DNA of 7,715 nt. Origin: Nitrospinae bacterium RIFCSPLOWO2_12_FULL_45_22. Its GTDB lineage: Bacteria > 2-12-FULL-45-22. Numbering within the stretch: position 1 is the stretch's first letter; each line of letters starts with the position of its first letter. Below, in pieces: positions 5,478-7,715 of this stretch. The notes below the pieces were generated by a model, which saw nothing but the letters and a program-made list of their open reading frames with translations, searched no databases and was not told where the DNA came from. The translations under genes were made by a program, and so were the position numbers. The stretch spans positions 1 to 7,715 of the forward strand of contig MHDQ01000300.1 in NCBI GenBank assembly GCA_001803565.1, given 5' to 3'.

Positions 5478-5500
5478 GAGCTATCGCTCACTATGCTTTT

Positions 5501-5505
5501 GGAGG
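5501..5505 (+). promoter_or_regulatory. Ribosome binding site that decides the radical SAM gene start
   Basis: GGAGG stands 5 bases before the ATG at 5511. An in-frame ATG at 5493 lies upstream of this site and has no comparable ribosome site, so 5511 is the start used. Confidence 0.75.
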
Positions 5506-5510
5506 TATTA

Positions 5511-6890
5511 ATGCGGGTCTTGCTGCTCAATCCCCCAAATCATTCTTCTTTGACCGCCCGGGTAGGGTGGCAGTTCCCACCATTGGGCTTGCTTTATATT
5601 GCGGCTGTGCTGCGGCAGGCGGGTTTTGAACCAAAAATTATTGACCTCTCTATTCATGATGGCGCTGAGGCCATAGACTTTTCTCCTTATGGAGCCGTTG
5701 GTATATCCTCTGATACTCCCAGGTTTAACCTGGCCTTAGGGTTAGCCAGGCAGGCCCATGCGGCTGGGAAAATGGTCTTTATGGGTGGATTACATCCTAC
5801 CTTTGAGGATACCGAGGCCCTGGAGTCAGGTTGTGTCCACTATGTAGTCAGGGGAGAGGGTGAACTAACGGCCCTAGAACTTCTGGAGTACTTCCGCAAG
5901 AAAAGATATACCTTAAGGCCAGAAGATATCCTGGGGCTATCCTGGAAAGATGAGAAAGGAGAATTGAGACGAAGCCCTGATCGCCCTTTTATTGAAGCCC
6001 TGGATACCCTCCCATTACCAGCCAGGGACTTGATCCCTCTCGGCGCTTACCCAAAGAAGATGGGGAGGAGAAAGGTAACTTCTATCATCTCCAGCCGGGG
6101 CTGCCCTAACCAATGCTCTTTCTGTTCTTGCAATGTCATGGCTGGTGTCCGGTGGCGCACGCGTTCCGTAGAGGCTATCCTGGAAGAGATAGCCCTACTG
6201 GATAGGGATTATGGGATAAAGGCTGTAGGTTTTGCCGATGACAACTTCACCCTGGATGCATCCCGGGTCTGGACTTTTACGGAGCAGATATTAAAGCGGC
6301 AGATGGATGTCCATTGGTTTTGTTCTGCTACCCCAGAGAAATTAGCCCGGAATGAAGAGCTGGTGAAGCAAATGGCCCGGGCAGGTTGTAAATATATGTA
6401 TTTAGGGCTAGAAAGCGGTACTGAACACCAATTGAAAGGTTATCATAAGAAGACCACCGTAGAGGCCGGGGCGCAGGCCATAAAACTCCTTAAAAAATAC
6501 CATATCAAGGCCATCGCTAGCTTTGTCATTGGTGGTATTGAGGAAACCTATGATGATATAATGAAGACCCTAAAATATGCCCTTCGCCTCAACCCACCCA
6601 CAGTCCAGTTTTGCCTCTTGACCCCTTACCCCGGTACAAAAATATATAAAGAGTATCAAGATCGGATTGTGAGTAAAGACTGGCACAAATATGATATCAT
6701 GCACGCTGTATTACGGACCACGCATTTCTCGCCCGAGGAATTGCAAAATATCTTGAAAAGAATGTATATCCGGTTTTATTTCAGGCCAAGACGTATCCCT
6801 ACTTTATTAAAAAACCTTATCCGGGGAACCTTGATCCCCAGAGGGACCAATAAGGTTAAGGTCACAATTACATCGGCTGAGCCGCTATAG
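5511..6890 (+). CDS. Radical SAM protein with N-terminal B12-binding domain
   Basis: The 459-residue protein begins MRVLLLNPPN, the typical opening of cobalamin-binding radical SAM enzymes. It has a Rossmann-like B12-binding domain over about residues 1-135 (QFPPLGLLYIAAVLRQAGFE, FMGGLHPTF, VVRGEGE). No canonical DxHxxG cobalt-ligand motif is evident, as is common in this class. The radical SAM barrel follows with the [4Fe-4S]-binding CPNQCSFC, cysteines 198, 202 and 205, then FADDNF, YLGLESG, SFVIGG and LLTPYPGTKIY. The basic C-terminal tail FYFRPRRIPTLLKNLIRG resembles membrane-associated members of the class. Enzymes of this type do methylations, ring formations and other radical chemistry on unactivated carbons, and the oxygen-sensitive cluster suggests anaerobic function. 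The substrate cannot be told from sequence. It ends in tandem stops TAG TAA. A mutase-family gene follows 149 bases later on the same strand, giving a possible B12-linked pair. Confidence 0.9.
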   Translation: MRVLLLNPPNHSSLTARVGWQFPPLGLLYIAAVLRQAGFEPKIIDLSIHDGAEAIDFSPYGAVGISSDTPRFNLALGLARQAHAAGKMVFMGGLHPTFEDTEALESGCVHYVVRGEGELTALELLEYFRKKRYTLRPEDILGLSWKDEKGELRRSPDRPFIEALDTLPLPARDLIPLGAYPKKMGRRKVTSIISSRGCPNQCSFCSCNVMAGVRWRTRSVEAILEEIALLDRDYGIKAVGFADDNFTLDASRVWTFTEQILKRQMDVHWFCSATPEKLARNEELVKQMARAGCKYMYLGLESGTEHQLKGYHKKTTVEAGAQAIKLLKKYHIKAIASFVIGGIEETYDDIMKTLKYALRLNPPTVQFCLLTPYPGTKIYKEYQDRIVSKDWHKYDIMHAVLRTTHFSPEELQNILKRMYIRFYFRPRRIPTLLKNLIRGTLIPRGTNKVKVTITSAEPL

Positions 6891-6908: not shown

Positions 6909-6965
6909 TGTCATTTCGACCGTAGGGAGAAATCTTCAAGATTCCTCGCTTCGCTCGGAATGACA
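6909..6965. repeat. 57-bp palindromic dispersed-type repeat
   Basis: The left arm starts TGTCATTTCGACCG at 6909 and the right arm ends GAGCGAAGCGAGG-type sequence read in reverse, closing with GGAATGACA at 6965. The 28-base arms (6909-6936 and 6938-6965) match at 23 of 28 positions around a single central base. Words such as GTCATTCCGAGCGAAGCGAG and TCATTTCGACCG with GGGAGAAATCT recur, from memory, as multi-copy intergenic palindromes in many unrelated bacterial genomes. It starts 18 bases after the radical SAM stop and could also act as a 3' stability element. Confidence 0.75.
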
Positions 6966-7004: not shown

Positions 7005-7039
7005 TTAGCAGCAAAAAGCGAAGAGGAGGGCAGGCGGTC

Positions 7040-7715
7040 ATGTTTACTAAGGAATTATTAACCGAATGTCAGAAATTAGAAGAAGCGTGGCAGGCAGAGT
7101 GCCAGCGGCTTTATAGTGAGAAGGGATACCTGGGCGCTACGGGCGCTGGCATCCCGGTGAAAGCCGTTTATACCCCGGCAGATATCCAAAACCTGGACTA
7201 TAAAGATATCAGTATGCCCGGCCTTTTCCCTTACACCCGCGGCATCCACCCATTAATGTATCAATATGCCCAATGGGCTACCCAACAAGGCTTAGGCTAT
7301 GGCTTGCCAGAAAATACCCGTGCCCGATACGACCTGCTAAGAAAAGAGGGTATGGAGGGCTATATCCCCCAGTATTTCATTGTCAATGATGCCGTGGTGC
7401 AGCATGGATATGACCCAGACCACCCGGCTGGTAAAGGCCAAGTCGGTAGATGCGGCACATCCTGGTCTAATATTAAGGATTATGAAATCCTTTTCCATGA
7501 CTTACCCCTGGATAAAACTGGCGTAGTTTTAGGTACCTTTGATACCTCGGCTCCTGCCCTGGCTATGTATATTGTCTGCGCAGAAAAGATGGGCTACCCT
7601 ACCCAAAAACTTCGGGGTCATACTATCAATTGTGCCTATCGGCAGACCGCTATGGATTTGCCCTCTTTCGTCCCGGAAAATGCCTTTAAGGTAGTAGCAG
7701 AAGTGATAAAATATT
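7040..7715 (+). CDS. Methylmalonyl-CoA mutase family large subunit, divergent, 3' end beyond window
   Basis: The open frame begins with ATG at 7040 behind AGGAGG (7024-7029, spacer 10) and runs off the right edge after 225 codons without a stop. The fold signature of the acyl-CoA mutase TIM barrel is clear: PGLFPYTRGIHPLMY at 60-74, HGYDPDHP at 122-129, VGRCGTSWSNIKDYEILFHD at 135-154, IPLD-like LPLDKTGVV and PALAMYIVCAEKMG. By-eye alignment to the Propionibacterium enzyme suggests that key substrate residues differ: Arg82 to Ala77, Arg87 to Gln82, Tyr89 to Gly84, and Arg207 to about Asp206. It is therefore unlikely to isomerise methylmalonyl-CoA, and isobutyryl-, hydroxyisobutyryl-, ethylmalonyl- or alkylsuccinyl-CoA-type mutases, or a non-catalytic role, are all open. 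Whether a C-terminal B12 domain is fused or encoded separately cannot be seen. Confidence 0.85.
   Translation, partial: MFTKELLTECQKLEEAWQAECQRLYSEKGYLGATGAGIPVKAVYTPADIQNLDYKDISMPGLFPYTRGIHPLMYQYAQWATQQGLGYGLPENTRARYDLLRKEGMEGYIPQYFIVNDAVVQHGYDPDHPAGKGQVGRCGTSWSNIKDYEILFHDLPLDKTGVVLGTFDTSAPALAMYIVCAEKMGYPTQKLRGHTINCAYRQTAMDLPSFVPENAFKVVAEVIKY

Follow-up and report, generated by a model that had tools for sequence, protein, structure and literature searches.

The window analysed here comprises the first 7,715 bases of a 23,563-base contig from a Nitrospinae genome that is 85% complete. A gene for a PrkA-type serine protein kinase (677–2752), consisting of an AAA_PrkA and a C-terminal PrkA domain, is found near a DUF507 gene and a tRNA (65–137). 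Towards the other end, a forward-strand gene (5493–6890) encodes a B12-binding radical SAM protein that was BchE/HpnJ-like in profile searches and fell below all curated cut-offs. This gene is directly upstream of, and co-directional with, a mutase gene, and a functional link between the two is possible. The 149-bp space between them holds an imperfect inverted repeat, TGTCATTTCGACC...GGAATGACA (6909–6965), which is the sole full copy in the stretches read and looks like a palindromic intergenic element. No cobalamin riboswitch was found within the window. The mutase large-subunit gene begins with an ATG at 7040 preceded by an AGGAGG ribosome-binding site (7024–7029, forward strand), and its N-terminal 225 codons (7040–7715, forward strand) encode the substrate-side half of a TIM barrel. 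This portion matched PF01642 with 125.5 bits (cut-off 22.1, E = 3e-36), in agreement with the fold markers PGLFPYTRG, HGYDPDHP and LPLD, all present in the reading frame and described as intact in an earlier note on this DNA. An AlphaFold2 model of the 225-aa half, using an alignment of three homologues, had a mean pLDDT of 41.6.

The reading frame (7040–7714) is open-ended at the window edge because a 7-N scaffold gap (7716–7722) comes next, inside the mutase gene. The sequence AAATATT is present on each side of the gap as a 7-bp overlap, and joining there (expected sequence GTGATAAAATATTGTTCC) preserves the frame, extending the large subunit past 7715 to 560 aa, with the gene reaching contig position 8736 beyond the window. 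We infer that the two gap-flanking halves are one gene, supported by each half, analysed alone, falling in the same small clade; misassembly was rejected on the same grounds. The joined protein scored 459 bits against TIGR00641 (curated cut-off 303.8) and, judged by these profiles, is a large subunit of the methylmalonyl-CoA mutase (MCM) family. It missed every equivalog model, scoring 370 bits against the MCM model PRK09426 (NCBIfam equivalog, cut-off 876), and did not reach the cut-off of the MCM small/beta chain model TIGR00642 (165.7 bits against 617.25). Overall identity to ordinary mutases was ~40%, and the best PDB relative was HcmA (360 bits).

Extension downstream also located the B12-binding subunit that the earlier note had proposed looking for. 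A 131-aa small subunit is encoded at contig positions 8819–9214, 82 bp downstream of the large subunit, and passed the TIGR00640 cut-off (118.6 bits against 57.45). It is closest to HcmB (101 bits, a near-best match) and to the archaeal-type stand-alone B12 mutase domain of PDB 2YXB. Alignment of the segment LLTKSAMDAHDRG with LLAKVGLDGHDRG of HcmB indicated that the equivalents of Lys604, Asp608 and His610 are retained, and the base-off/His-on B12 motif K..D.H..G is intact. A one-residue deletion is common to the small subunits of the clade described below, and another paralogue encoded in the genome has it as well; this shared deletion fits the large and small subunits having changed together. 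The MeaB-type chaperone and CoA ligases sought in the same place were not there: no CoA ligase, dehydrogenase or MeaB gene is adjacent to the target gene, opposite-strand genes come after, and the one MeaB in the genome is located on a different contig.

Active-site residues were numbered according to Propionibacterium MCM, anchored on PDB 1E1C and 5REQ. The residue of 1E1C that aligns to the human histidine is the known H244A change, and the substitution in 5REQ is Y89F. In a full-length MAFFT alignment of MCM, HCM and about 65 further homologues, the target segment MYQYAQWATQQGLGYGL (7256–7306, forward strand) corresponds to MCM MYAFRPWTIRQYAGFST, with Ala, Ala, Gln and Gly replacing Arg82, Thr85, Arg87 and Tyr89. 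The alignment is gap-free over MCM residues 71–108 with no frameshift near the site, and the Ala, Gln and Gly that had previously been assigned by eye to positions 82, 87 and 89 are confirmed. At position 207, formerly read as probably Asp, the residue is not Arg in either placement, being Met by MAFFT and Asp only when a one-residue gap is shifted. A proper alignment therefore restored neither Tyr89 nor Arg207, which contact the substrate carboxylate in MCM proper.

The change to the pocket, as aligned, is larger than the earlier note stated. Relative to MCM the target carries T77L, R82A, T85A, R87Q, Y89G, S114I, S164V, T166G, T195H, Q197I and H244I, of which the replacement of His244 by Ile is new, as are the disappearance of the small polar residues lining the barrel and a four-residue insertion before Asp118. 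Every residue of the conserved CoA-thioester site (Thr85, Arg87, Ser114, Thr166, Thr195, Gln197 and His244) is replaced. Across 43 homologues from other genomes these positions hardly vary (T85 and Q197 in 43/43; R87, S114, T166 and T195 in 42/43; H244 in 42/42), so the replacements in the target are not due to chance. Glu370 and Gly91 are invariant wherever readable among the homologues, the target included. For 1REQ, the catalytic residues given in the Catalytic Site Atlas are Tyr89, His244, Lys604, Asp608 and His610 (PMC3205055). Of this set, the target system lacks the two substrate-side residues and retains the three cofactor-side ones. The alignments of both subunits thus show wholesale replacement of substrate-side residues and retention of those facing the cofactor. 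At ten positions lining the pantetheine channel of 1REQ, ordinary mutases have TSSTTQSHQQ and the target has LIVGHIGQEN, a fall from ten polar residues to four. The target and two relatives from its own genome have the three least polar linings of about 70 sequences. Isobutyryl-CoA mutases typically have Phe89 and Gln207; the target, with Gly and Met/Asp, differs at both positions and lies outside the Phe/Gln group of the tree. It likewise lacks the Ile at 89, the otherwise conserved CoA residues and the HcmA clade placement that mark 2-hydroxyisobutyryl-CoA mutase.

Trees were built by FastTree from all columns, with active-site columns masked, and from the N- and C-terminal halves separately. 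The target consistently grouped with two paralogues from contig C286 of its own genome and a protein encoded on a plasmid of Sphingobium sp. WTD-1 (WP_284114471.1), with support of 1.0 for all columns, 1.0 with the active site masked, 0.995 for the N-terminal half and 0.955 for the C-terminal half. This clade falls outside the sampled MCM, ICM-like and HCM groups and by this placement appears to be without a characterised member. Neither of the two outcomes that the earlier note had named as refutations was thus observed. The altered pocket is not confined to the target, as at least three relatives share the pattern. In a leave-one-out profile test the target and the C286 pair separated from ordinary mutases. 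The Sphingobium protein was barely separated (535 against 533 bits), and it is the trees, together with motifs in common, that place it in the clade.

No orthologue with >45% identity to the target was found, and a clade profile run against 386 widely sampled genomes returned the own genome plus one match that was an ordinary mutase. The same genome search with the Sphingobium protein as query gave no further members, and the sole match among viral contigs was an ordinary mutase. Scoring was confined to the best three candidates in many genomes and may therefore overlook rare members. No description of such a clade was found in the open-access papers searched.

The Sphingobium protein, which is uncharacterised and annotated as a methylmalonyl-CoA mutase family protein, is 38% identical to the target and joins it with support of 0.95–1.0. 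Both contain YQYxxWxxxQ and GLPxxTRxRxDLL, both are without Arg at 82 and 87 and without His at 244, and both retain Arg283, although seven of the ten lining positions are polar in the Sphingobium protein compared to four in the target. Unlike the target gene, it sits in an apparent acyl-CoA catabolic operon, accompanied there by its own small subunit and MeaB. The other products of this operon are an AMP-dependent acyl-CoA ligase, acyl-CoA dehydrogenases, a biotin-dependent acyl-CoA carboxylase, an enoyl-CoA hydratase, an AtuA-family protein and two SnoaL-like proteins. The content of this operon argues that at least the Sphingobium member would be active, and on CoA esters. The strain has been reported as a chloramphenicol degrader (PMC13400229), a trait not known to be linked to the operon. 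The C286 paralogues are 42 and 40–41% identical to the target and are likewise without Arg82, Arg87, Gln197 and His244. They occur in a tandem large-small-small-large arrangement (L018, 273–6965) beside a molybdopterin oxidoreductase gene broken by an N gap.

Beyond this clade, the genome contains an unusual expansion of 11 mutase large-subunit genes (contigs C85, C134, C136, C207, C220, C265, C286 (two), C300, C309 and C318; loci L017–L026), several of which are altered at position 244 to Asn, Ala or Leu. At one of these loci (L023, 4782–13455), another diverged mutase and its small subunit lie near a glycyl radical enzyme and activase, together with benzoyl-CoA reductase/2-hydroxyacyl-CoA dehydratase-like genes. 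The best model for this glycyl radical enzyme was 3-sulfopropanediol dehydratase, far below cut-off. A 2.5 Mb genome of another phylum (G033, loci L059–L073) gave 16 mutase large-subunit matches, a second and apparently separate radiation of active-site-diverged mutases; Arg87 is kept in most of them, and position 244 is Asn, Asp, Ala or Ser in many.

Sequence establishes the fold family and subunit architecture of the target, along with its cofactor motif, its residue losses and its clade; activity, reaction and substrate are inferred. The target is reasonably likely to be an active two-subunit adenosylcobalamin (AdoCbl) mutase whose substrate differs from those of the characterised members, which lends support to the earlier suggestion of a mutase with a new substrate. 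A substrate outside the known family range is most likely because the grip residues are nearly all replaced and the B12 side is intact. The target would form the barrel subunit of a carbon-skeleton mutase organised in the manner of HcmAB and IcmAB, a proposal for which the full-length barrel, the adjacent intact small subunit and the genomic MeaB provide sequence support. As in all relatives, homolysis of AdoCbl would yield an adenosyl radical, which would abstract hydrogen from a substrate other than methylmalonyl-, isobutyryl- or 2-hydroxyisobutyryl-CoA, followed by a 1,2-shift. The substrate is probably a hydrophobic acyl-CoA bound in a new way, most likely branched or cyclic, with its thioester and pantetheine arm gripped by different residues. 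An acyl-CoA is proposed because the Sphingobium clade member is found in an operon with CoA ligase, dehydrogenases and carboxylase.

The same losses could be taken further. Arg82, the Ser/Thr/Gln residues of the channel and His244, which binds the thioester, have gone together, with the B12-side residues left in place. The C286 relatives have lost even more, and the gene beside them encodes a molybdopterin oxidoreductase and not a CoA enzyme. Both would fit an active AdoCbl mutase whose filled or re-lined pantetheine channel admits a free acid or other carrier-bound compound in place of a CoA thioester. Such a substrate seems unlikely given the acyl-CoA operon around the Sphingobium member and the Arg283 kept in both proteins, and MCM-type mutases are not known to act on substrates other than CoA esters. 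The broader notion, that an MCM-fold B12 mutase clade in a rarely sampled phylum abandoned the CoA-thioester channel, either for a non-CoA substrate or to hold CoA wholly anew, is similarly unlikely.

Within this family, a protein that lacks His244 and has a bulkier lining could instead have lost its function. A non-catalytic partner or decaying pseudo-enzyme, comparable to the Propionibacterium MCM beta chain, would account for two of the five Catalytic Site Atlas residues having gone and for a bulkier, more hydrophobic lining, a likely path to a blocked barrel. This is improbable, however, for a 560-codon frame that has stayed open with Glu370 and other core motifs, that scores 166 against a beta-chain cut-off of 617, and whose clade partner belongs to an intact catabolic operon; moreover, its own small subunit keeps the Lys604, Asp608 and His610 equivalents, residues for which a beta-type chain would have no use. 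Very little weight can be given to a methylmalonyl-, isobutyryl- or 2-hydroxyisobutyryl-CoA mutase of the ordinary kind that misalignment or assembly error has made to look unusual. The ~40% identity to ordinary mutases and the assembly gap within the gene would allow it, but the alignment around MCM 71–108 has neither gap nor frameshift, the same losses recur in three relatives belonging to two organisms, and the clade is stable when the active site is masked.

Known B12 acyl-CoA mutases are few, and the differences among them lie mainly in one or two positions at the acyl end, with the grip on CoA and thioester fixed. Replacement of that whole grip with the B12 machinery kept would mean that the radical scaffold can shift to substantially different substrates, and would offer a starting point for rearranging the carbon skeletons of compounds that are bulky or branched, for which the Sphingobium member is a cultivable entry point to the clade.

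Compared with characterised systems, the target combines familiar architecture with an altered pocket. The Propionibacterium MCM beta chain has lost both substrate and B12 sites; membership of that group was rejected for the target given its TIGR00642 score far below cut-off and its intact small subunit. MCM itself (Propionibacterium 1REQ, human 2XIJ) shares with the target the barrel fold, the GYDxDxP loop, Glu370 and the B12 motif, but its Tyr89, Arg207, Arg82, Arg87, His244 and channel lining are replaced, and the B12 domain is a separate protein in the target system. HcmAB, the 2-hydroxyisobutyryl-CoA mutase (PDB 4R3U), is like the target in having separate large and small chains with K..D.H..G intact. 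HcmA nevertheless differs in tree position and possesses Arg82, Thr85, Arg87, Ser114, Thr195, Gln197 and His244, whereas the target has none of the seven.
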